Shown here: one piece after another, positions 3,630 through 22,582 of the stretch
Position numbering within the stretch: position 1 is the first letter of the stretch
Layout: every line of letters begins with the position of its first letter
IMG/VR virus record: IMGVR_UViG_3300017986_000091
Span: 1 to 30,152 of that record
Origin: a virus
Strand: one strand, 5' to 3'
Length of the DNA stretch: 30,152 bases
Notes under the pieces: generated by a model
Database searches by the model: none
Seen by the model: the letters and a program-made list of their open reading frames with translations, nothing else
What the model was told of the DNA's origin: nothing
Made by a program: the position numbers and the translations under genes

Positions 3630-3840
3630 CACGTACACGGAATGCAAAGTTATTACGACTAGCCATACGCTCTTGGGCGATGTGGCAGATGTAAAGGCAG
3701 AAATACTGGAAACGCTACCCACGTATAAGCGGGTGGTGGATGTAGTTTGGTTGGAAATAGAAAATTACAGCCAGATAAAAGCTACAGAAGATGGCGTCGA
3801 AAACCACATTCTGCAGGTTTACAACGCAGCGCAGGTATAG
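3622..3840 (+). CDS. Hypothetical protein, 72 aa
   Basis: The ATG at 3622 is chosen over an upstream in-frame ATG at 3601 because GGAGG lies 6 nt before it (3611-3615). Acidic, soluble, no recognised domain. Followed 2 nt later by the nuclease-like gene. Function unknown. Confidence 0.55.
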   Translation: MPSTYTECKVITTSHTLLGDVADVKAEILETLPTYKRVVDVVWLEIENYSQIKATEDGVENHILQVYNAAQV

Positions 3841-3842
3841 GC

Positions 3843-4229
3843 ATGGAGTTCAACCCACGGCATATGAAAGGCGGGTGGGGCGAAGCAATGGTGACAGCCT
3901 TTATGCTGCAGCGTGGTTGGATGGTTTTTAATAACGTTATGTCATCGGGGCCAATAGATTTAATAGCCGTACACCCTACCCATGGTGTCGCTATGCTTGA
4001 TGTCAAAATAGATACCAAGCGCCCAAAATATTACGAAAACGGAAATAGGAGCAAAAAAGGGTACCGCATCTACAGGCCACTAAAACCACTACAGAAATGG
4101 CTACGGGTGCATACAGCGTATGTCGGTGAGGAGGGCGATATACAAATGGTGCCACCAGTTGAGGGCATAGATCGTGAACACATGACCTTACCAAAATGCA
4201 GTAAAAAGGAGCGTGCAAATGGCGTTTAA
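3843..4229 (+). CDS. PD-(D/E)XK nuclease-like protein
   Basis: A 128-aa protein starting at ATG 3843; a longer in-frame extension from 3747 is only antisense-like readthrough in the upstream gene. It has the order expected of small restriction/resolvase-like nucleases: GGWGEAMV (Glu14), SGPIDLIAV (Asp35), then MLDVKID (DxK near 48-50). These are the usual metal-binding D and (D/E)xK positions. Such stand-alone nucleases occur in phage genomes as Holliday-junction-resolvase-like or debranching enzymes. It sits inside the lysis cassette, directly before the endolysin, and overlaps it by 11 nt. The substrate cannot be told from sequence. Confidence 0.6.
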   Translation: MEFNPRHMKGGWGEAMVTAFMLQRGWMVFNNVMSSGPIDLIAVHPTHGVAMLDVKIDTKRPKYYENGNRSKKGYRIYRPLKPLQKWLRVHTAYVGEEGDIQMVPPVEGIDREHMTLPKCSKKERANGV

Positions 4230-4701
4230 ATTTAGCAAAAGAAGCTTGGCTAAGCTGGAGGGTGTACACCCGGATATGGTTAAGCTGTGCCACGAAGCTA
4301 TAAAACTGAGTGTTTACGATTTCGGGATTACGTGCGGCATGCGCACGCTTGAAGAACAGATAAAGCTTAAAGAACAAGGGCGTTCACAAACGCTTAAGTC
4401 TAAGCACCTAGAAGGGCTGGCAGTAGACGTTTTGGTCTACATAGATGGCGAACACACATGGGATGGCGCCGTTTATGATGAAGTGGCCGATGCGTTTGCA
4501 CAAGCAAGCCGTAACTTCTCTATCCCTGTGCGTTGGGGCGGCGCGTGGCACATTAACAGCATTGCCCAGTACAACGGCACAATGGAAGATGCCACTATGG
4601 CTTACACCAAGCTACGCAGCGATCAAGGGCGCCGTGCGTTTTTTGATGGCCCACACTTTGAATTATCCGCGGCTAATGTGGTTGCGCCGGAGTACGAGTG
4701 A
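4219..4701 (+). CDS. Endolysin, M15-family peptidase
   Basis: A 160-aa peptidase of the VanY / L-Ala-D-Glu (M15) type that cleaves peptidoglycan stem peptides. The zinc ligands fit the family: His63 and Asp70 in SKHLEGLAVD, and His146 in DGPHFEL, with the upstream helix GMRTLEEQ also typical. The start is ATG 4219, with AAGGAG 6 nt upstream; a GTG six bases earlier lacks a ribosome site. It has no signal peptide, so it needs a holin, and two candidate holin-like genes follow immediately. The stop overlaps the next start in GTGATG. Confidence 0.85.
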   Translation: MAFKFSKRSLAKLEGVHPDMVKLCHEAIKLSVYDFGITCGMRTLEEQIKLKEQGRSQTLKSKHLEGLAVDVLVYIDGEHTWDGAVYDEVADAFAQASRNFSIPVRWGGAWHINSIAQYNGTMEDATMAYTKLRSDQGRRAFFDGPHFELSAANVVAPEYE

Positions 4702-5024
4702 TGCCAGCGGCAAAGAAATTCCAAGCAGATAGTGCGTATGCGCAGTACGACCTAAACCATGATGGCGTTGTTAGCGATGAAGAACTGGCACGCAGCAAGG
4801 AAATGCTTGAGCTGGAACTGCGCGAAGAAAAGGCCGAAGCGCAAAAGCGAATGGCATGGGTGGCTATCGGCAGCATGGTTGTTTACATGCTGTTGCCCCT
4901 AATGCCGTTTGTGCCCGCCGACAGGCTGGAAACACTGGCAAGCCTTAGTGATATGCTATTCCTTAGCCAAGCATCCATTGTCGGGCTTTATTTTGGCGCG
5001 CAGGCGTACATGAACCGTAAATAG
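4701..5024 (+). CDS. EF-hand membrane protein in lysis cassette (holin-like)
   Basis: About 107 aa (start ATG 4701 or GTG 4698). Residues 17-28 form a textbook 12-residue EF-hand calcium loop, DLNHDGVVSDEE, with D1, N3, D5, G6 and E12 all present. A charged helix (ARSKEMLELELREEKAEAQK) follows, then two transmembrane segments, about residues 51-68 and 85-100. Its place between endolysin and a 3-TM holin suggests a membrane role in lysis, perhaps a holin or antiholin. Calcium control is an inference from the loop alone. Confidence 0.65.
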   Translation: MPAAKKFQADSAYAQYDLNHDGVVSDEELARSKEMLELELREEKAEAQKRMAWVAIGSMVVYMLLPLMPFVPADRLETLASLSDMLFLSQASIVGLYFGAQAYMNRK

Positions 5025-5033
5025 GAGGCCAAC

Positions 5034-5417
5034 ATGATACAGGCATTGATAGGGCCAATCGCAGATTTGGCAGGCACATGGCTACAAGGCAAGGTGGAAA
5101 CCAAAGCGGCAGAAACTAAGGCTAAGGTTGCTAAGGCAGAAGCGGAAGCACAGATAATGCTCAGCCGCGCTACAAGCGAAGCCGATTGGGAAAAGATTAT
5201 GGCCCAAGGCACGCAGGCAAGCTGGAAAGACGAATGGCTGGTTTTGCTGTTCAGTATTCCGCTTATTCTTTCGTTTTGTGGCGAGTGGGGGCGTACTGTA
5301 ACCCAAGAAGGATTTGCGGCTTTGGAGCAGATGCCAGAGTGGTACCAATACACCTTGGGCGTAATTGTAGCTAGTAGCTTCGCCGTTAGGTCAGCAACTA
5401 AGTTCTTTAGTAAGTGA
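5034..5417 (+). CDS. Holin of the 3-TM (GTA holin) type
   Basis: A 127-aa protein with AGGAGG 6 nt before its ATG. An N-terminal amphipathic segment is followed by a Lys/Ala/Glu-rich helix (residues 20-45). Then come SWKDEWLVLLFSIPLI, EQMPEWYQYTLG and a last hydrophobic segment ending near KFFSK. The DEWLxLL and PEWYQ elements are characteristic of the three-TM holin family known from gene transfer agents and many alphaproteobacterial and marine phages. The protein would form the membrane lesion that lets the M15 endolysin out. The next small gene begins inside its stop (GTGA). Confidence 0.75.
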   Translation: MIQALIGPIADLAGTWLQGKVETKAAETKAKVAKAEAEAQIMLSRATSEADWEKIMAQGTQASWKDEWLVLLFSIPLILSFCGEWGRTVTQEGFAALEQMPEWYQYTLGVIVASSFAVRSATKFFSK

Positions 5418-5581
5418 TATGGGTTTTGCTTTGGGTAGCGCACGCGCATGTCTGGATAGACGGTACAAATACCTTCACCAAGGTATGCGTGTATCGCCCG
5501 CTAGATGGCCCGCGTTGGCGCAAGCGCAGCTTTTATATCCACCCAGACACGGCATGCCCATACAAAATAAAGCTGCAATAA
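5414..5581 (+). CDS. Small exported Trp/Cys protein, 55 aa (GTG start)
   Basis: GTG at 5414 shares GTGA with the holin stop. The product begins MIWVLLWVAHAHVWIDG, a short hydrophobic segment like a signal sequence. A polar region with two Cys follows (VCVYRPL near residue 25 and TACPY near 48). I prefer this frame to the 72-aa ATG frame starting at 5419 because of the overlap start and the signal-like N-terminus. Two other small proteins in this window (5703-5864 and 26747-26944) have the same plan. Function unknown; a periplasmic role at the end of the lysis cassette is possible. Confidence 0.5.
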   Translation: MIWVLLWVAHAHVWIDGTNTFTKVCVYRPLDGPRWRKRSFYIHPDTACPYKIKLQ

Positions 5582-5611
5582 AAAAGGAGCAGTACCTTGC
5601 GATACTGCCCC
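5577..5611 (-). terminator. Intrinsic terminator of the sRNA and of the small-gene cluster
   Basis: Minus-strand stem GGGGCAGTA / TACTGCTCC (9 positions, one mismatch) with an 8-nt loop, followed by TTTTTTATT. It ends the sRNA and would also end readthrough from the 5703-6752 cluster. On the plus strand the stem is followed only by CTTTGCC, so it is a weak terminator for the lysis operon. Confidence 0.75.
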
Positions 5612-5654
5612 TTTGCCATTTAACCCAACTGCAGTAAAGTGGCGCTTCACTACA
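5577..5654 (-). ncRNA. Predicted trans-acting small RNA, about 77 nt
   Basis: A sigma70-like promoter (5661-5689) points left with no reading frame of note behind it. From the predicted start near 5653/5654 the RNA reads as a 9-bp hairpin (5653-5645 with 5639-5631, loop CGCCA, two G-U pairs). A single-stranded stretch AGTTGGGTTAAATGGC (5630-5615) follows, then an intrinsic terminator hairpin (5611-5603 with 5594-5586) and T6ATT. That is the layout of a bacterial regulatory sRNA. The single-stranded part is complementary to the AACCCAAC motif found before the ribosome sites of many phage genes here. No transcript evidence is available; this is inferred from sequence. Confidence 0.65.
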
Positions 5655-5660
5655 AGGTTC

Positions 5661-5689
5661 ATTGTAGAGCCAATGGCGCTAAACTGCAA
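5661..5689 (-). promoter_or_regulatory. Operator-containing promoter of the sRNA
   Basis: Minus strand: -35 TTGCAG (5689-5684), 17-nt spacer, -10 TACAAT (5666-5661). The spacer carries the near-palindrome TAGCGCCATTGGCTCTA (5681-5665), a variant of the TAGTGCCAATGGCACTA operator shared by other minus-strand promoters in this window. Confidence 0.7.
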
Positions 5690-5702
5690 TAGATAACTAC
5701 AT

Positions 5703-5864
5703 CTAGTTACTAGGATACTCAGTGCATACATAATTTAGTGCCGTTGGATCGGTATCCACTATTTGTACCCCCTGCACCTCACAAGAAACCAAGCTGCGCG
5801 TAGTGGTTACGTGTATGGTATCTATGCCCGTGGCCGTCATTACCACGATTAGTAGCGCGTACAC
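5703..5864 (-). CDS. Small exported protein, 53 aa (GTG start)
   Basis: GTG at 5864 directly abuts the TAA of the upstream gene (TAAGTG). The product begins MYALLIVVMTATGID, a short hydrophobic signal-like segment, and has two Cys (VSCEV near residue 29 and YVCTEYP near 47) that could pair in the periplasm. It is the last gene of the five-gene minus-strand cluster; the sRNA promoter begins 14 nt downstream. It has the same plan as the 55-aa and 65-aa exported proteins elsewhere in the window. Function unknown. Confidence 0.5.
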   Translation of the reverse strand: MYALLIVVMTATGIDTIHVTTTRSLVSCEVQGVQIVDTDPTALNYVCTEYPSN

Positions 5865-6011
5865 TTAGTACGTCACCAGAGTTTCGTTAGGAAATAGCTG
5901 TGCGGTGGCTATGCGGTGCTTTTCAGCGTATGCCTGTGCTTCTACCAGCGTTAAGTATTTGTGGCCACCAAAACTGTACGTCTTGGTGCTTGGGTGAAAT
6001 TTTATTTCCAT
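5865..6011 (-). CDS. Hypothetical protein, 48 aa
   Basis: Starts at ATG 6011, preceded by GGAG that overlaps the end of the Zn-ribbon gene. A small soluble protein (MEIKFHPSTKTYSFGGHKYL...), with a likely beta hairpin followed by an EAQAYAEKH helix. It sits tightly between two other genes of the cluster (3 nt before, 0 nt after), which supports translation. No family recognised. Confidence 0.5.
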   Translation of the reverse strand: MEIKFHPSTKTYSFGGHKYLTLVEAQAYAEKHRIATAQLFPNETLVTY

Positions 6012-6014
6012 GGT

Positions 6015-6206
6015 TTACTCCATTATGCCTGTAGGGTGGTCTACCACAATGCCTTTACACTGCGTGCATGCGCGGGTAAGCGGCTCTTGCTCCACAATAC
6101 GTAATTCAGCCATGCACCATGGGCAGCGGTTTTCATCCAGCCTGCGCTGTATATCGCCACGTTGATCTGGCCCCATTTCTTCAAAAGGAATTGGCACATC
6201 ATCCAT
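6015..6206 (-). CDS. Zinc-ribbon protein, 63 aa
   Basis: Two CxxC knuckles, CPWC (residues 28-31) and CTQC (47-50), form a typical zinc ribbon, with an acidic N-terminus (MDDVPIPFEEMGPDQR). Such small ribbons are common in phage early clusters and often bind nucleic acid or proteins. Its ATG lies 2 nt after the stop of the 42-aa membrane protein gene. Exact function unknown. Confidence 0.6.
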   Translation of the reverse strand: MDDVPIPFEEMGPDQRGDIQRRLDENRCPWCMAELRIVEQEPLTRACTQCKGIVVDHPTGIME

Positions 6207-6208
6207 GG

Positions 6209-6337
6209 CTAACCCCTAAACGCATCTGCGAGTGTGCGGATGATGCTGTCAACAATAATGCCAAAAAACAGCATCCCAATAGTAATGCCCAGCCAGACCC
6301 AAATGTCTGAGGTGTAATACTGCAAAATCTCAAGCAT
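6209..6337 (-). CDS. Single-pass membrane peptide, 42 aa
   Basis: ATG at 6337 lies 8 nt inside the end of the upstream gene, with AGAGGAAAA before it, so translation is coupled. The product has one hydrophobic segment (IWVWLGITIGMLFFGIIV, residues 12-29) followed by a short basic tail. Such peptides in phage early or moron clusters may act at the inner membrane, for example in exclusion, but nothing here fixes the role. Confidence 0.55.
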   Translation of the reverse strand: MLEILQYYTSDIWVWLGITIGMLFFGIIVDSIIRTLADAFRG

Positions 6338-6752
6338 AGATTTTCCTCTTGTTGTGGTTTTTAAGAAATGCCCGAATTTCTATTTCGTGTGCTGGGCGCC
6401 AATAGCAATGTCCACCGTACCAGTGCCCAAACATAGGCAACTCGTCGTTGAAAGTGCTGTATTGCACATTGCGATATTCAACAGTGTATTCTGGCGCACC
6501 AATTTCTAGCTGGTGGGTTGTCCACTGCAGATATTCCAGCACATCGTTTAAATGGCCACTTGCAACGTTCATAACGCGCGCAGCGGTACCAAGATAAAAG
6601 GGGTTGTCGTGCTTAGCAGTAGGCCACCAGTAAACATAACCGCTAGTCATACCATTAACGCGGTTTAGCTCGACAGGGCAGATGTATAGGCTTTGTAGTA
6701 CAGATGAAGGCGTGCGGCCTGCATCCCAATCCACTTTATGTGCTTTGAACAT
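6330..6752 (-). CDS. Hypothetical protein, 140 aa
   Basis: First gene of the leftward small-gene cluster. The start is ATG 6752 (MFKAHKVDWDAG), with AAAGGAG 6 nt upstream; the longer open frame to 6905 crosses the promoter and is rejected. Rich in Trp, Tyr and His (GYVYWWPTAKHDNPFYLG, FGHWYGGHCYWRPAHE), soluble, no recognised family. It is expressed from the operator-bearing promoter at 6782-6810 with a leader of about 25 nt that carries the CCCAAC motif. Confidence 0.6.
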   Translation of the reverse strand: MFKAHKVDWDAGRTPSSVLQSLYICPVELNRVNGMTSGYVYWWPTAKHDNPFYLGTAARVMNVASGHLNDVLEYLQWTTHQLEIGAPEYTVEYRNVQYSTFNDELPMFGHWYGGHCYWRPAHEIEIRAFLKNHNKRKIYA

Positions 6753-6765
6753 AATATGCTCCTTT

Positions 6766-6774
6766 AGTTGGGTA
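6766..6774 (-). promoter_or_regulatory. Leader motif TACCCAACT before the 140-aa gene
   Basis: On the transcript it reads ACCCAACT, complementary to the first 8 nt of the sRNA seed, and lies 2 nt upstream of the AAAGGAG ribosome site. Shared with other leaders in the window. Confidence 0.5.
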
Positions 6775-6781
6775 TGTAATA

Positions 6782-6810
6782 ACTGTAGCGCCATTGGCAC
6801 TACGTGTAAA
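6782..6810 (-). promoter_or_regulatory. Operator-containing promoter of the five-gene cluster
   Basis: Minus strand: -35 TTTACA (6810-6805), 17-nt spacer, -10 TACAGT (6787-6782). The palindrome TAGTGCCAATGGCGCTA (6802-6786) fills the spacer and touches the -10, so bound protein would block RNA polymerase. Confidence 0.7.
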
Positions 6811-6906
6811 CCCATCAAAACCAAGCACAAACCGTAATAACACAAAAATATGGGAAACGCGGTTTTGCACCAAACAAAAGGCAAGCAAATTTCCCAAGAA
6901 AACAAG

Positions 6907-6959
6907 TGGTGCTGTAGGGGAGGATTGAACTCCCGACCTCTCCCTTACCAAGGGAGTGC
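6907..6959 (-). other. attP core: 3' half of a tRNA-Thr(GGT) gene
   Basis: Read on the minus strand this stretch gives an anticodon arm CTCCC-TTGGTAA-GGGAG with anticodon GGT, a variable loop, a T-arm GGGAG-TTCAATC-CTCCC, the acceptor strand CTACAGC, discriminator A and encoded CCA. No matching 5' acceptor strand lies at normal distance; a one-mismatch candidate (GCGGTAG, 7001-6995) would need an oversized D region. A 3' tRNA half near an integrase gene is what a phage attP carries when it integrates into, and restores, a host tRNA gene. This part of the 302-nt gene-free stretch 6753-7054 holds the att core; apart from the promoter at its left edge, the only other structure I see is the CACAAGCTTGTG palindrome at 7040-7051. 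Confidence 0.75.
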
Positions 6960-7039
6960 TATTACCTGCAATGCTATGCTTTGCTGCGCTATACCTACCG
7001 CGGCAATGCGCTGCCATGTGGTAACGTGCGGGGGTTTCA

Positions 7040-7051
7040 CACAAGCTTGTG
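7040..7051. repeat. Perfect 12-bp palindrome CACAAGCTTGTG
   Basis: Perfect palindrome between the att core and the end of the 244-aa gene. It could be an arm-type site or a transcription end, but it has no T-tract. Role not determined. Confidence 0.4.
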
Positions 7052-7054
7052 GTA

Positions 7055-7789
7055 TTAAATTTCGTAATCTTTCCACTCCTTCTTAATTTTGGAGGCATAG
7101 ATCATGTACAACCGCTGCATAAGCTTGGATGGAATTGGCTTGGTTGATGCGGCCATGGTTTGCAGGGCAGAGGCTATATAGCGCTCTGTCGGTGTAGCTG
7201 GGCCAACACTCATGCGAAACTTTTCGTTGGTTAGTGGCACTAGATGCACCATGGGCGTGCCAGCTTTCAGCTTGTGCCCATTTTCTGTGGTGTTCCACAA
7301 ACCTTGAAAGTTAATCTGGAAATCTTGCCGCGGCGTATACAAACCGGGCAACGTGTACCACAGCGTATTATCTGGGTAAGGAATAGGGCCAAGGTAAAAC
7401 CGTAGCTCTGGTGGGCATATACAATGCCAGCCGGCGGCCACCTTAAGCACAAACGGCATAGCACTGCGTTCATCCAAATAATCCTTAGCGGGATGCACAA
7501 CCTGTTCTGTAATTTGGTAAAACTTTGGGCTGGCGTTTTTTGCTTCTAGGCGCCCGTGCTTGTTGTTTACGTAAATATCGCGGTCAAGCGGCACAAAATA
7601 ACCAGTAGTGTTTATATCTATAATGGCGGGGCACTTAGAAGCGGCTGGCACGTATTCTACGCTTGCCTTTGATCGCCTTACTTCTTCAGCCATTGTTTTG
7701 TACCACTCAAAACGGTGCTTGCGTGCCTCAACTACTGGGTAAGCTTCTGCCATTCCATCAGTTACGTGGAAAAATCTTATGGTGCGCAT
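7055..7789 (-). CDS. Conserved-looking phage protein, 244 aa, unknown function
   Basis: ATG 7789 overlaps the upstream stop (TAATG) and has GGGAGG before it. Soluble protein with a CPAIIDINTTGYFVPLDRDI core near residue 53, a WHCICPPELR segment near 121, a Pro/Gly-rich middle and a basic C-terminus. The layout recalls proteins found in T4-like and marine phages that share a CPA..D..N...P pattern, but I cannot name the family with confidence. It is the last gene of the integrase operon. Confidence 0.65.
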   Translation of the reverse strand: MRTIRFFHVTDGMAEAYPVVEARKHRFEWYKTMAEEVRRSKASVEYVPAASKCPAIIDINTTGYFVPLDRDIYVNNKHGRLEAKNASPKFYQITEQVVHPAKDYLDERSAMPFVLKVAAGWHCICPPELRFYLGPIPYPDNTLWYTLPGLYTPRQDFQINFQGLWNTTENGHKLKAGTPMVHLVPLTNEKFRMSVGPATPTERYIASALQTMAASTKPIPSKLMQRLYMIYASKIKKEWKDYEI

Positions 7790-8034
7790 TATGCCTCCCT
7801 CATTTTACGAGCAATAAACTCGCTAAGCTTTTCTAGCATTCTTGCGGCCGTTAACTCTGTTAATGTCAGCGTCATAGGCTTTTGCCCGCTTTTTGGTACG
7901 ACAATCATTTCTAAGCTGTTCTCGTCTTCCATGTTGTCGCGCAAGTAAATTAGGTGCGGTAACAACGCTTCATTCGAGGCGTAGCTGTACTGCAGATGCA
8001 GCTCGCTCTCCTCGTCCAAGTGTGTAGTGTCCAT
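7789..8034 (-). CDS. Hypothetical protein, 81 aa
   Basis: The start at ATG 8034 is uncertain; it overlaps the integrase 3' end by 65 nt and has only a weak ribosome site. Acidic N-terminus, then a helical C-terminal half (LTELTAARMLEKLSEFIARKMREA). The stop overlaps the next start in TAATG. No family recognised. Confidence 0.5.
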   Translation of the reverse strand: MDTTHLDEESELHLQYSYASNEALLPHLIYLRDNMEDENSLEMIVVPKSGQKPMTLTLTELTAARMLEKLSEFIARKMREA

Positions 8035-9019
8035 AGGTTTCCGAAATGGTTTTTTGGCTAGTTTGCGTAAAGTCAGCCACGTCTGCGATAGGTACGCCAT
8101 CTTCTAACATCCAAGTTATTGCTGTGTGTTTTAACATGTGCGGAGTAACGCGCTGTATTTCGGCGCGTTTACTAGCTTGCTGTAGGCCCGTCACAGCGCT
8201 TTTTATGGGCCTACCCGCATACTCAACTACAAAATCTGTAAGGGCTTGCTGTCTCTGCTTGACAAGCGCCCCAGCAAGCACGCTATTGCCAAGCAACGGC
8301 ACTACACCACGGCGCTTACGGTTCCGTGGCGCATCAAACCTACGTAAGTCGATACGGCCGTTTGCATTACTTTTCGGGAAAACAACATCATCCCACGTTA
8401 AAGTAAGGATTGCGGCGTTACGTGCGCCGGTGCCCAGTGCAAGAAGTATATACAACCGTATATGGCTGGCGGCGTGTAGCAATAACCGCCGTGCTTCGCT
8501 TTTGGTTATAAATTTTTCACGCGGCTTACCTTCTAACGGCAGCCACATAAGTGGGGGGTGCTGTAGCCTGCCGCTTTTATGTGCGTAATTAAGGGCAGAG
8601 CGCAAATCAACCAGTTCGCGGCGTATGGTGTTGTCTTTGACAATCTTAGCTGTTTTCCAGCCATCGCGTAAAAACGGCTCTGCTTTTCGCTTGCCATAAT
8701 ATTCACGACATATTGCAGGGTTTATAGCGCTAGCAGGCAAGCTTCCCAAATGGCGCAGTAGGTGCGCAAATAGCTTTTTACCATATTTGTCCACAACGCC
8801 TTTTTCTTCTTTGTACAAATTTATGCAGGCTTCTATATCAAGTTCAGCCGCCCGAGGGGCGGCCTGCTCTGCTTTAATAAAATCTGCTAGGGCATGAAGG
8901 GCAGCTTCATACTTGCTCTGGCGGGTGCTGACTTTTCGATCTCGCCCATTCCAGTTTCCGACAATGTAGTAATACTGTCCCTGCTTTTTGAGCCTTGGGT
9001 GCTTTCTTGGCCGTGGCAT
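7970..9019 (-). CDS. int: Tyrosine recombinase, phage integrase
   Basis: A 349-aa site-specific recombinase. The start ATG 9019 follows GGAGGAG. An N-terminal basic arm-binding part is followed by a core-binding helical part (about 60-165) and the catalytic domain. Catalytic residues visible: Arg200 in GTGARNAAIL, a beta-hairpin Lys near 235 (RNRKRRG), His294-x-x-Lys297-His298 in TPHMLKHTAITWM, and nucleophile Tyr329 in SETYGHY. Lys in place of the second Arg is common in PHxLKHT integrases of alphaproteobacteria. With the 3' tRNA-Thr half about 1 kb away, it most likely integrates the phage at a host tRNA-Thr gene. Confidence 0.92.
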   Translation of the reverse strand: MPRPRKHPRLKKQGQYYYIVGNWNGRDRKVSTRQSKYEAALHALADFIKAEQAAPRAAELDIEACINLYKEEKGVVDKYGKKLFAHLLRHLGSLPASAINPAICREYYGKRKAEPFLRDGWKTAKIVKDNTIRRELVDLRSALNYAHKSGRLQHPPLMWLPLEGKPREKFITKSEARRLLLHAASHIRLYILLALGTGARNAAILTLTWDDVVFPKSNANGRIDLRRFDAPRNRKRRGVVPLLGNSVLAGALVKQRQQALTDFVVEYAGRPIKSAVTGLQQASKRAEIQRVTPHMLKHTAITWMLEDGVPIADVADFTQTSQKTISETYGHYTLGRGERAASAVQLRLE

Positions 9020-10414: not shown

Positions 10415-11403
10415 TATTTCATCTCCTTAACGGTAAGGGTTCTTTGGGTGCGCGCAGCCACAACATATTCAGCCACATCGCGGCTAGGCGCTTTAAGCAC
10501 AAAGCCGTTTGTGGTGGCGGCGCCAGCGTCACCAATCTTGTCCATAAGTTTGTTTTTTGTTGCGCGTATTTTGCTGGTTAAATCCTTTTCCTCTTTCTTG
10601 AGGCTAAGGTAATCGCTGCACAGTGTTGGCAGTTCGTTGTCGCCAGTTAAGTCAACTTCATCTACCTTAGCGCGCGGAAAGCGCGCTTTAATTGCCTTTT
10701 CTGTAGCGGTGCTGCCGTCTACGGGCGGCTCTTTGCCGTCTGCAATGTTTTGCCAGAACTTTTTGCTTGCTACGATAATGTTGGCAATGGTGGGGTCATG
10801 GCGGCGGTAGAAGTACACGTAAGGTTGGTTGCCACCCACCAAGGCGCCTAAAACGCCCCATGTGTACCCCATAACGGCCATGTAATGCTGTAGCTGAATA
10901 ATGTACTGCAGCGGCGGTTCATCGTCCGTCCACTTTTGGTTGTGGATCATGCCATCAACATTTTTTATTTCAAAAACGCCCGGCCCCTCAATATCGTCGC
11001 CAAGTGCTTCATGCACTGCATGGCTTGGATATTGTAAAACGGCATCTGGAGTGCTGCCTAAGCGTGCTTGGCCATCGCGATAGAAGTAAGTGCTTTCTGT
11101 ATACAGGCATTCGTTTTGGTCATAACCAAGGTCTTCGGCAATGCCATCGCGAATACTGTATTCCAAGCGGCGCCCCCACTGCATGCGGGTGCTATCAGTG
11201 AAGTCGGGCGGCGTTGCACCCGTCTTTTCCATGTACAAGCTGTACACGCTGCCCCACATGCTTGCGCCAAGTAGTGCAGCGGCTTCACTACCACCAGTGT
11301 ACCCGCGGCGTATTTCCAGCCATTCAGCGCGGCCGTTATAGACTTTGCATTCTGGACGGTAACCATCAATAGCGGCGGGAAAATCGTTTACTAAAAGTGC
11401 CAT
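10414..11403 (-). CDS. YqaJ-type 5'-3' exonuclease
   Basis: A 329-aa lambda-exonuclease-fold protein. Motifs in order: YTGGSEAAALLG (35-46), GRRLE (Glu81), GSTPDAVL (Asp120), FEIKN (Glu145-x-Lys147) and QLQHYMAVMG. These are the PD-(D/E)XK positions of the YqaJ viral recombinase family. The C-terminal third is a Lys/Glu-rich helical region with a final basic stretch. It is the first gene of the leftward recombination/integration operon and is read from the promoter at 11438-11466 through a leader with TTAACCCAACT. Confidence 0.88.
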   Translation of the reverse strand: MALLVNDFPAAIDGYRPECKVYNGRAEWLEIRRGYTGGSEAAALLGASMWGSVYSLYMEKTGATPPDFTDSTRMQWGRRLEYSIRDGIAEDLGYDQNECLYTESTYFYRDGQARLGSTPDAVLQYPSHAVHEALGDDIEGPGVFEIKNVDGMIHNQKWTDDEPPLQYIIQLQHYMAVMGYTWGVLGALVGGNQPYVYFYRRHDPTIANIIVASKKFWQNIADGKEPPVDGSTATEKAIKARFPRAKVDEVDLTGDNELPTLCSDYLSLKKEEKDLTSKIRATKNKLMDKIGDAGAATTNGFVLKAPSRDVAEYVVAARTQRTLTVKEMK

Positions 11404-11417
11404 AATTTACCTCGTAT

Positions 11418-11428
11418 AGTTGGGTTAA
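11418..11428 (-). promoter_or_regulatory. Leader motif TTAACCCAACT before the exonuclease gene
   Basis: An 11-nt perfect complement of the predicted sRNA seed, lying between the predicted start site and the GAGG ribosome site. It is also the inner arm of an inverted repeat with the -10 region (TATAGTTTGG / CCCAACTATA, 11415-11443). Confidence 0.6.
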
Positions 11429-11437
11429 GGTTTCCAA

Positions 11438-11466
11438 ACTATACAAGGCAAATATGACAAAAGCAA
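11438..11466 (-). promoter_or_regulatory. Promoter of the recombination/integration operon
   Basis: Minus strand: -35 TTGCTT (11466-11461), 17-nt spacer, -10 TATAGT (11443-11438). This spacer has no operator palindrome; a core TGCCAATGGCA lies 11 bp upstream of the -35 (11477-11487), in the repressor-proximal intergenic region. Confidence 0.65.
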
Positions 11467-13029: not shown

Positions 13030-13327
13030 GTATGAAACAGGAAACCTGCGCGAACTGTTCTTTAATGATCGTGGAAAAATTGGCAGTGGGTTGGATGATA
13101 TGCTGTACGATATTGGCGTATTGTGTTCGTTAGCCTTGCAATATGGCGCCGATGGCACGGACTTAATACGCAGTATGTGCAAGGATGCCGATGGAAATCT
13201 GGCTTCGCCAGTGGGGCAAGCTCTTGAAAAAGCTTTAATTTACGAAAAAGAACACAAAGAAGCTTTACAGAAGGTAATTTCTCCGCATAATTTGGGCAAT
13301 GACAAAACGTCATACCCAACGGAGTAA
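12941..13327 (+). CDS. TSCPD-like small protein, 128 aa
   Basis: ATG 12941 follows GGAG. Residues 50-95 (LDDMLYDIGVLCSLALQYGA, then ADGTDLIRSM, and DADGNLASPVGQAL) resemble the TSCPD domain found at the end of some ribonucleotide reductases and as a stand-alone phage protein. Function in phages is not established. It lies in the replication operon between rusA and the DUF1376 gene. Confidence 0.55.
   Translation: MRTKLPTRRIAENFRVQTGQQRFVCTAGYEYETGNLRELFFNDRGKIGSGLDDMLYDIGVLCSLALQYGADGTDLIRSMCKDADGNLASPVGQALEKALIYEKEHKEALQKVISPHNLGNDKTSYPTE
13313..13320 (+). promoter_or_regulatory. Leader motif TACCCAAC before the DUF1376 gene
   Basis: Immediately precedes GGAGTAAATTATG. Same ACCCAAC motif as in the minus-strand leaders, here on the plus strand and in sense with its gene. 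Confidence 0.4.
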
Positions 13328-14009: not shown

Positions 14010-15857
14010 ATGGAACCCAACTTTTTTGACGCCTTGGAGCGCGAGGATGGCATTAAGCTGCCAAAATCAGCGCCCGGCACATACAAGATAAATTGCCCAA
14101 ACTGTAACGGTAAGGGAAGTAAAGGTTACGAGGGCAAAACCCTAAGCGTAACATTGGACGAAAAAGGTGCCGTTTGGTACTGCAATAGGCAAAACAACTG
14201 TGGCCACACTGGCAGTCGGATGTTTGAACGCCCAGAAGAAACGTGGCGCTTTCAGAAGCAAAAGAAGGTTTACAAGCGGCCGCCAGAGCCAGCAAAGCAA
14301 GATGCTGGGTTAGACCCGCGTGTTTACGCTTGGTTTGAAAGCCGTGGTATAAGCAAGGAAACGGTGGATGCTTGGGGTGTATATACCCAAGATAGGTTTA
14401 CGGATGGACAACAGCGAAGGTGGGTTGCCTTCCCCTTCCGCGATTTCGAGCAAAACTTGATTAACGTTAAATACCGCACGGTAAGCGATAAGCGGTTTAT
14501 GCAAGAAAAAGATGCGGAGCAAACCTTCTATGGCCTTAACATGTGCGAAGAAGGAAAGACACTGTACATTGTCGAGGGCGAAATGGATGCGCTTAGCATG
14601 TACGAAGCTGGTTATCGCAACGTTGTTAGTGTGCCTAGTGGTGGCATTAGCGCAAAATCCATAGGAAAGCTGGCAGAAGATAGCGACAAGTTTCTTTTTC
14701 TTAACCACGCTGGAGATTGGCTAGACCAGTTTGACCATTATGTTTTGGCCTGTGACTTTGACGAAGTAGGCAAGGCGCTTATGGAGGAAGTTAGCCGTAG
14801 GCTGGGCAGGGAAAAGTGTTGGCGTGTGCATTGGCCCAAGGGCACAGACGAGCAATACCTAAAGGATGCCAACGATGTTCTTATTGCCAGTGGAGTAGAT
14901 GGGCTGCGAGAAGCCGTTGAGGCGGCCGAGCCGTGGCCTATACAGGATATACACAGCGTGCAAGATTACGCTGCAGAAGTGTGGAAGCTGTACAGGGGCG
15001 AATTCGATAAGCCATTAAGCACAGGGTTTCCGAACCTAGACGAACATATGAAAATACGGCCGGGCGAAATATCCGTGGTTACTGGCATACCCAATAGCGG
15101 TAAGTCAGAAATGATGGACGCAATAATGCTTAACATGGTCGAAGCCCATAAATGGAAATTTGGCATATGTTCTTTTGAGAACGCGCCGCGCTTTCATATT
15201 GCCAAGCTTGCGGAAAAGGTAATTGGCGCTCCGTTTTTTGCGGACAACGCACCAGTTCGCAGGGCAAGCGAACGCGAGGTGCAAGATGCCATGGTGTACC
15301 TAAACGATAATATCCAGTTTATACGTGCGGACGACCCCGACAAAAGGCCACCAAACATTGATTGGATCATTGATAGGGCTAAGGCCATGGTGCGGCAGTT
15401 TGGCATGCGTGGGCTGGTTATTGACCCATACAACGAAATTGAAAGTACGCGCAGCCAAAACATGAGCGAAACAGAATTTATTTCGTATCTGATAAGTAAG
15501 ATTAAGCGCTTTGCCCAAACCTACGAGGTGCATGTGTGGGTTGTTGCGCACCCGCGCAAAATGAACAGCGTTGATGGTGAAACACCGATCCCCGGCCTGT
15601 ACGATATTTCTGGTAGTGCGCACTGGGCGAACAAGGCAGATTTAGGCTGGTGCGTAAGCCGTGATAGGCAAGACCAAACCAAGCCTACGGAACTGCATGT
15701 TTTAAAGGTTAGGTTTAAAGAATGTGGCAGCGCTGGCGGCATTGCCAAGTTTCGCTGGGATAGGTGGAGCGGGCGTTATACTGGCGTTACGGACGAGCCA
15801 GAAGCGGCGCCTTTACGCTACACTGGTGGCGCTAGTTATCAGCCGTATTCTGATTAA
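14010..15857 (+). CDS. Primase-helicase (T7 gp4-like)
   Basis: A 615-aa bifunctional replication protein. An N-terminal zinc-binding domain (Cys29, Cys32, Cys58, Cys64) is followed by a TOPRIM primase fold (LYIVEGEMDAL, Glu189/Glu191/Asp193; ACDFDE, Asp249/Asp251). The C-terminal RecA-type DnaB-family helicase has Walker A GIPNSGKS (359-366). It would unwind DNA and prime lagging-strand synthesis at the phage fork. The codons just after ATG read GAACCCAACT, matching the leader motif. The convergent HTH gene overlaps its last 26 nt. Confidence 0.9.
   Translation: MEPNFFDALEREDGIKLPKSAPGTYKINCPNCNGKGSKGYEGKTLSVTLDEKGAVWYCNRQNNCGHTGSRMFERPEETWRFQKQKKVYKRPPEPAKQDAGLDPRVYAWFESRGISKETVDAWGVYTQDRFTDGQQRRWVAFPFRDFEQNLINVKYRTVSDKRFMQEKDAEQTFYGLNMCEEGKTLYIVEGEMDALSMYEAGYRNVVSVPSGGISAKSIGKLAEDSDKFLFLNHAGDWLDQFDHYVLACDFDEVGKALMEEVSRRLGREKCWRVHWPKGTDEQYLKDANDVLIASGVDGLREAVEAAEPWPIQDIHSVQDYAAEVWKLYRGEFDKPLSTGFPNLDEHMKIRPGEISVVTGIPNSGKSEMMDAIMLNMVEAHKWKFGICSFENAPRFHIAKLAEKVIGAPFFADNAPVRRASEREVQDAMVYLNDNIQFIRADDPDKRPPNIDWIIDRAKAMVRQFGMRGLVIDPYNEIESTRSQNMSETEFISYLISKIKRFAQTYEVHVWVVAHPRKMNSVDGETPIPGLYDISGSAHWANKADLGWCVSRDRQDQTKPTELHVLKVRFKECGSAGGIAKFRWDRWSGRYTGVTDEPEAAPLRYTGGASYQPYSD
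14014..14022 (+). promoter_or_regulatory. AACCCAACT at the primase-helicase start codon
   Basis: Lies at codons 2-5, a region where sRNA pairing can block initiation. It is also coding, so it may be chance. Confidence 0.3.
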
Positions 15858-16110
15858 TAATTTCACCCATGGCACGCTCCACGTTTACATCGTGGGGCAA
15901 GCCCATACGCTGGCGCTCCCACATAAGGGCAAGTATTAGCGGCACTTCTGGTGGCAGCTTACGCGCGCCAGAAACCCAGCGCCTCACAGTAGTATCATCG
16001 CGGCCAATAAAACGGGCAAACTTCCGCTGCGCACCGCGGCCTAGTAGCTTTTCGATGGTAGCTTTGAAGTCTTCTGGTGTCACAGGTATCTCTAGCAAAT
16101 TTGTTTTCAT
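15832..16110 (-). CDS. HTH regulator, 92 aa, probably leaderless
   Basis: Residues about 12-60 form a helix-turn-helix of the phage Cro/plasmid-copy type (KLLGRGAQRKFARFIGRDDT, then VRRWVSGARKLPPEVPLIL). Its promoter at 16117-16145 carries the shared operator in the spacer. The -10 ends 7 nt before the ATG, so the transcript should begin at or next to the start codon, as lambda cI does from PRM. That marks it as a self-regulated DNA-binding protein and the best candidate for the protein that binds the dispersed operators. It converges on the primase-helicase gene with a 26-nt overlap and no visible terminator. Confidence 0.7.
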   Translation of the reverse strand: MKTNLLEIPVTPEDFKATIEKLLGRGAQRKFARFIGRDDTTVRRWVSGARKLPPEVPLILALMWERQRMGLPHDVNVERAMGEIINQNTADN

Positions 16111-16116
16111 GCCCCC

Positions 16117-16145
16117 TTTATATAGCCATTGGCACTACAGGTAAA
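16117..16145 (-). promoter_or_regulatory. Operator-containing promoter of the HTH gene
   Basis: Minus strand: -35 TTTACC (16145-16140), 17-nt spacer, -10 TATAAA (16122-16117). The operator half-sites TAGTGCCA and TGGCTA (16137-16123) fill the spacer. Predicted transcription start is at the ATG. Confidence 0.7.
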
Positions 16146-17261: not shown

Positions 17262-17284
17262 AGTTGGGTTCTCCAGTTGGGTTA
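17262..17284 (-). promoter_or_regulatory. Double CCCAAC leader motif before the DUF932 gene
   Basis: Two copies flank the GGAG ribosome site: TAACCCAACTG (17284-17274) upstream and AACCCAACT (17270-17262) between GGAG and ATG. Both are complementary to the predicted sRNA seed; pairing would cover the ribosome site. Confidence 0.6.
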
Positions 17285-17730: not shown

Positions 17731-17742
17731 GTTGGGTTAAAT
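17731..17742 (-). promoter_or_regulatory. Leader motif ATTTAACCCAAC before the 103-aa gene
   Basis: A 12-nt perfect complement of the predicted sRNA seed (GTTGGGTTAAAT), the longest match found, 3 nt upstream of AAGGAG. Confidence 0.65.
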
Positions 17743-17783: not shown

Positions 17784-17812
17784 ATTATAGCACCATTGGC
17801 ACTATTTTGCAA
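17784..17812 (-). promoter_or_regulatory. Operator-containing promoter of the 103-aa gene
   Basis: Minus strand: -35 TTGCAA (17812-17807), 17-nt spacer, consensus -10 TATAAT (17789-17784). The spacer and -10 edge contain TAGTGCCAATGGTGCTA (17804-17788). Confidence 0.8.
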
Positions 17813-18093: not shown

Positions 18094-18100
18094 GTTGGGT
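18094..18100 (-). promoter_or_regulatory. Leader motif ACCCAAC before the 66-aa membrane gene
   Basis: Lies between the ribosome site (AAAGGAG) and the ATG. A second copy, TAACCCAACC (17894-17885), begins at the stop codon of the same gene. Confidence 0.4.
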
Positions 18101-22531: not shown

Positions 22532-22545
22532 TTGGGTTAATTGGC
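22532..22545 (-). promoter_or_regulatory. Leader motif GCCAATTAACCCAA before the 75-aa gene
   Basis: Pairs with the sRNA seed over 13 of 14 positions (GCCA, one mismatch, then TTAACCCAA) and runs directly into the AAGGAG ribosome site. Confidence 0.6.
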
Positions 22546-22553
22546 TTATCCCT

Positions 22554-22582
22554 AATATAGTGCCAATGGCACTACTATGCAA
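22554..22582 (-). promoter_or_regulatory. Promoter with operator palindrome (75-aa gene)
   Basis: Minus strand: -35 TTGCAT (22582-22577), 17-nt spacer, -10 TATATT (22559-22554). TAGTGCCAATGGCACTA (22558-22574) is a full 8+1+8 palindrome and the best copy of the shared operator. Confidence 0.85.

Follow-up and report, generated by a model that had tools for sequence, protein, structure and literature searches.

A predicted small RNA of an uncultured temperate phage complements a motif shared by the leaders of its early genes

Results

A compact, predicted sRNA cassette on the minus strand

The DNA analyzed here (hereafter the window; 30,152 bases) is an IMG/VR record of an uncultured virus, a temperate phage that encodes an integrase, SSB, a YqaJ exonuclease, a CI-like repressor, DUF1376, a primase-helicase, DUF932 and a terminase. 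Close to the integrase lies a partial tRNA gene, its 3' half (6903-6976, minus strand; Rfam tRNA 31.5 bits, no ARAGORN gene), which is probably the attP core of the integrase. Cultured phages gave no DNA match to the window, and a genome scan with DUF932 returned distant homologues only, mostly in Firmicutes, and no host.

Directly after the phrog_2524 gene, a promoter, a hairpin, an exposed stretch and a terminator form a compact unit on the minus strand (5689-5577), with the coordinates and parts that the original prediction had assigned to it, as judged from the sequence and RNAfold:

5034-5417, plus strand: phrog_2524 gene, conserved neighbour of the sRNA cassette (synteny)
5661-5689, minus strand: sRNA promoter TTGCAG-17-TACAAT (sequence), with operator TAGCGCCATTGGCTCTA in the spacer
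5577-5654, minus strand: predicted sRNA transcript of about 77 nt (promoter position, fold, terminator)
5631-5653, minus strand: 5' hairpin of 9 bp (RNAfold)
5615-5630, minus strand: exposed seed AGTTGGGTTAAATGGC (RNAfold unpaired probability mostly 0.65-0.99; leader matches)
5577-5614, minus strand: intrinsic terminator, a 14-bp stem (5614-5583) and a T run (sequence)

The -35 (TTGCAG, 5689-5684) and -10 (TACAAT, 5666-5661) are separated by a 17-nt spacer; the operator TAGCGCCATTGGCTCTA, a 17-bp palindrome at 5681-5665, scores 15/15 and is laid out as in the other operator promoters. The exposed stretch is 14-16 nt long; the 19 unpaired nucleotides originally claimed shrink to 14 in RNAfold. 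The unit is thus predicted, from sequence, to be a free-standing non-coding gene with its own promoter and intrinsic terminator. In a covariance-model search no Rfam family reached its gathering score at the locus, the match to BjrC68 (RF02353) over 5577-5640 being weak (21.2 bits, far under the gathering score of 39).

A motif complementary to the seed lies at seven gene starts

The complement of the seed, (T)TAACCCAAC, is found in the ribosome-binding regions of seven window genes:

6766-6773, minus strand: leader motif ACCCAACT of the 140-aa gene, with an operator promoter at 6786-6802
11418-11428, minus strand: leader motif TTAACCCAACT of the YqaJ exonuclease gene (seed match; upstream 8-mers)
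13314-13320, plus strand: leader motif ACCCAAC of the DUF1376 gene (seed match; upstream 8-mers)
17262-17284, minus strand: two leader motifs flanking the DUF932 Shine-Dalgarno, TAACCCAACT GGAG AACCCAACT ATG
17731-17742, minus strand: leader motif ATTTAACCCAAC of the 103-aa gene, with an operator promoter at 17788-17804
18094-18100, minus strand: leader motif ACCCAAC between the Shine-Dalgarno and ATG of the 66/80-aa gene
22532-22540, minus strand: leader motif TTAACCCAA of the 75-aa gene, with an operator promoter at 22558-22574

Contiguous complementarity to the seed spans 7-12 nt in these genes. We recovered the match lengths given by the original prediction for the 103-aa gene (12 nt), the exonuclease (11), the 140-aa gene (8) and DUF1376 (7). 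The 66/80-aa gene matches over 7 nt. The DUF932 leader, for which 11 and 9 nt had been claimed, has the 9-nt match and one of 10 contiguous nucleotides that becomes 11 only when the next base is counted, and the 13 of 14 claimed for the 75-aa gene correspond to 9 contiguous nucleotides. One of the two DUF932 copies has G instead of T before the core.

The distance from motif to start codon is 7-35 nt, with the Shine-Dalgarno sometimes before and sometimes after the motif, and starts inside operons have it too; the motifs track start codons rather than promoters, and most touch the Shine-Dalgarno or occupy the gap before the ATG. Such positions fit a block of translation initiation and not control of transcription. 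Accessibility fails to separate motif leaders from others, and within leaders the motif is no easier to reach than the rest. In the exonuclease and DUF1376 leaders, the predicted fold pairs both motif and Shine-Dalgarno.

The exonuclease leader (11403-11455, minus strand) contains a long hairpin hiding the Shine-Dalgarno, and the relative G1 keeps a hairpin of different sequence there (~11035-11085, minus strand). Because the promoter -10 lies in the 5' arm, the whole hairpin would exist only in read-through from the upstream repressor gene, and the proper exonuclease transcript probably lacks that arm.

The primase gene (14010-14022, plus strand) begins with ATGGAACCCAAC, the motif falling just inside the coding sequence; this is kept in G1 and L393, and the counterpart in G5 and G2 is AACCCAAA or AACCCAAT. 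The primase gene is a possible further target of the sRNA.

The complementarity exceeds chance

The 8-mer TAACCCAA, found without reference to the sRNA, is the commonest upstream of window starts, and GAACCCAA/AACCCAAC are the commonest upstream 8-mers in the relatives G1, G2 and G5. The original prediction had called for comparison of the sRNA with shuffled controls, and here the actual seed outperformed all 500 shuffled seeds: over the six best leaders the mean duplex energy was -19.6, against -14.9 (sd 1.3) for the shuffles. The observed six-leader mean was reached by 0/500 shuffled seeds in each of the window, G1 and G9. Match counts in the AT-rich G9, where few leaders have the motif, were not significant. 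Cofolding gave -14.0 for window motif leaders and -6.5 for other leaders, about a twofold difference in binding to the sRNA.

A scan of some 60,000 20-nt windows, covering both strands and the 42 genes of this genome, found 8-nt matches to at least 6 of 42 leaders in the sRNA and the antisense strands of two leaders only; leader counts rest on the calls of a simple gene caller. We also screened 253 loci for 8-mers that lie close to a terminator and complement three leaders or more. The screen returned the window site and its G1 homologue, and most other matches were Shine-Dalgarno complements or coding repeats. Other leader words from this screen (in L155, L168 and L273) look like repeated promoter or terminator elements and were rejected as sRNA targets. 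The marine phages L155 and L168 carry a repeated ATCACGGAAATTCCGAGAATG before genes (~3660-8772, minus strand) and a perfect ATCACGGAAATTCCGAGAATG palindrome beside a terminator; these elements are perhaps phage RNA-polymerase promoters.

The sRNA operator recurs at most proposed target genes

In the promoters of the sRNA and of the 140-aa, 103-aa, 75-aa and 92-aa helix-turn-helix genes, the stretch between -35 and -10 is taken up by the palindrome TAGTGCCAWTGGCACTA, which in relatives also lies ahead of many genes. Only the operator core stands before DUF932, the exonuclease core sits upstream of the -35, and no operator was found in the window at the DUF1376 and 66/80-aa genes. With genes called by a simple gene caller, the leader motif occurs in 4/5 operator genes and 3/37 other genes (P = 0.0015). 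The original claim that the sRNA shares its operator with its targets therefore stands for four of the five operator genes and falls for the exonuclease (core only), DUF1376 and the 66/80-aa gene (none).

15832-16137, minus strand: 92-aa helix-turn-helix gene, lacking the leader motif; its promoter carries the shared operator at 16121-16137

Its product, which has a weak YdaS-like match, is a candidate operator-binding protein and autoregulator of the operator regulon.

Seed and leaders change together among relatives

Three relatives carry the cassette directly after the phrog_2524 gene, as in the window but in reversed orientation relative to that gene: G1 (39.3 kb, syntenic with the window), L393 (89-91% identical to G1) and G9 (56 kb, AT-rich, DUF932 48% identical). 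All the clade contigs compared that cover the locus have it (4/4). The contigs of G2 and G5 end before the cassette position; G2- and G5-type phages are predicted to encode GTTGGGTTC. The hairpins and terminators of G1/L393 and of G9 differ in sequence from those of the window, and GTTGGGTT is kept. The terminator T run is present in the window and G9, and short (T4) in G1 and L393. RNAfold shows the seed clearly accessible in the window and partly buried in G1 and L393.

The base 5' of AACCCAA in the leaders is mainly T in the window, G in G1 and L393, and A in G9; the matching sRNA base is A in the window, C in G1, C in L393 and T in G9, so that pairing is kept. This base pairs with its own sRNA at 20/21 leader sites, and at no more than 14 when the sRNAs are swapped among the three lineages. 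In cofolding the cognate sRNA gave the best mean binding in all three genomes, non-cognate sRNAs being ~2-4 kcal/mol weaker. The co-conservation of seed and leaders that the original prediction named as a check is therefore borne out, in a comparison of four sRNA loci of which two are close relatives, both by the presence of the cassette and by the joint change of the variable base. The pattern named beforehand as telling against it, motifs kept while the seed is lost or changed without compensation, occurs in none of the four contigs covering the locus.

The G9 sRNA has a weak promoter without the operator. Its pairing with the leader of a 96-aa gene extends through the Shine-Dalgarno, and its 5' hairpin arm, AACGGAGT, duplicates the leader's own sequence. 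The mRNA could open the G9 hairpin by toehold strand displacement.

In the distant relatives L036, L040, L041 and L026, an operator promoter is followed by the AACCCAA leader motif (terminase 59-67% identical for L036, L040 and L041). The two-layer layout of operator and motif is wider than the four genomes in which the sRNA is seen. Homologues of the phrog_2524 gene in other phages have no cassette after them. An exact seed search of viral contigs returned 21 contigs, none with the shared architecture, and of 85 matches to the combined operator and seed pattern only G1 and L393 had it, the rest being coding families or chance.

Discussion

We consider it probable that the locus encodes a trans-acting phage sRNA that is co-induced with early genes and represses their translation. 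The computed support comprises architecture, motif enrichment, synteny, seed-leader covariation and operator sharing; transcription, repression, timing and chaperone use are what we infer. The short seed is complementary to several mRNAs encoded elsewhere, near their ribosome sites, and seed and target sites are co-conserved at the four loci. That RNA and motif have changed together between relatives suggests that the sRNA probably lowers translation of a set of viral genes.

The ~77-nt sRNA would be made from a promoter under the operator common to most of its target genes. Its GTTGGGTT core and flanking bases would pair with (N)AACCCAAC motifs that precede the start codon by no more than ~35 nt in early and accessory phage genes, namely those for the exonuclease, DUF932 and DUF1376 together with several small ones. 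A duplex covering or adjoining the Shine-Dalgarno would block 30S binding, a repressive effect suggested by the positions of the sites. Induction or infection would derepress the sRNA and its targets together, an incoherent feed-forward loop by which early protein would be made in a pulse or held below a ceiling.

Could the AACCCAAC motif instead enhance translation, or be the site of a protein (a translational repressor acting on RNA, or a regulator acting on DNA), with its complement at the sRNA locus arising by chance or as another DNA site? We think this unlikely. The motif is indeed strongly tied to gene starts across the clade, distant members with no sRNA seen included. However, an RNA-binding protein would not select the reverse complement of its site in an unrelated transcript, and four genomes retain this complement, set between hairpin and terminator, with a neighbouring base that covaries. 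A DNA operator would be expected at promoters, whereas AACCCAAC occurs inside operons and follows start codons, for which reason the DNA-operator reading was rejected. It is similarly improbable that host mRNAs are the main targets of the sRNA, or that its pairing with the leaders activates some of them. The folded exonuclease and DUF1376 leaders would suit activation, and the VpdS sRNA of phage VP882 affects RNAs of phage and host alike (PMC12197685). Yet pairing at most motifs should prevent initiation, the exonuclease hairpin arm is probably missing from the proper transcript because the promoter -10 lies within it, and conserved matches to the phage's own leaders require no host target.

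An sRNA made in lysogens might also silence the early genes of incoming related phages, the T, G and A variants being immunity types. The lineages do differ in specificity, and phages P1/P7 use the c4 RNA in this way (PMC12197685), but we hold this to be very unlikely: the sRNA promoter carries the early-gene operator and so would be off in a lysogen if that operator binds repressor, and non-cognate binding is just ~2-4 kcal/mol weaker. We find it likewise very unlikely that the RNA is non-functional, as an ordinary late-operon terminator with a chance seed match, or that the locus is a small coding gene. The G1 and G9 terminators point the same way as the late genes, and two open frames (72 and 76 aa) run across the locus in the window; against this, the window unit faces the late genes, seed and operator are conserved, and a chance match is ruled out by the shuffled seeds, the 253-locus scan and the scan of 20-nt stretches. 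The small-ORF reading was rejected, there being no protein similarity to G1 across the locus.

Taken as a trans-acting repressor of early genes, the sRNA belongs to a familiar class of regulator; what is unusual is the circuit. RegA of phage T4 is a protein that damps translation of many early genes at their starts; it resembles the proposed system in being one phage regulator for many early-gene starts, and differs in being a protein rather than an RNA. The original statement that few phage trans-acting sRNAs are known is broadly right, with VpdS and 24B_1 as precedents, and those described act mostly on single phage transcripts or host genes (PMC12197685). VpdS, an Hfq-bound RNA of ~50 nt, acts on phage RNAs, host RNAs and also host sRNAs (PMC12197685). 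It is likewise a phage-encoded trans-acting sRNA affecting phage RNAs, whereas the window set is defined by a motif at seven to nine phage gene starts and a shared operator, and the window sRNA is predicted from sequence. PreS (LPR1) and DicF act on host mRNAs, and 24B_1 is a 20-nt product promoting lysogeny (PMC12197685); all are small trans-acting RNAs of phage origin, but none has been described with a motif common to many phage leaders. The c4 RNA of P1/P7 acts on ant and controls immunity by antisense (PMC12197685). Like the RNA proposed here, c4 represses a phage gene through base pairing, and related phages differ in type specificity. Unlike c4, which is derived from the transcript it regulates, the window sRNA is a free-standing gene with its own promoter and terminator, and its proposed targets are spread over several distinct transcription units, at distances of up to 17 kb. 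In the open-licence literature we found no account of a regulon that lies within one phage, spans several genes and is marked out by a leader motif together with a common operator.

A broader proposition, to which we give an even chance, is that, for a large part of its early genes, the clade uses a second code based on RNA: a shared translational-operator motif read by one co-induced sRNA in an incoherent feed-forward loop, with seed and leaders drifting into distinct specificities and toehold strand displacement possible in G9.

If our reading is true, early gene expression in phages can be governed by one sRNA with many targets, here a phage-internal regulon of seven to nine genes answering to one seed. 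Such a regulon would be traceable by seed-leader covariation using metagenomic sequence alone, and would offer a search rule for uncultured phages: a terminator-proximal word complementary to many leaders.
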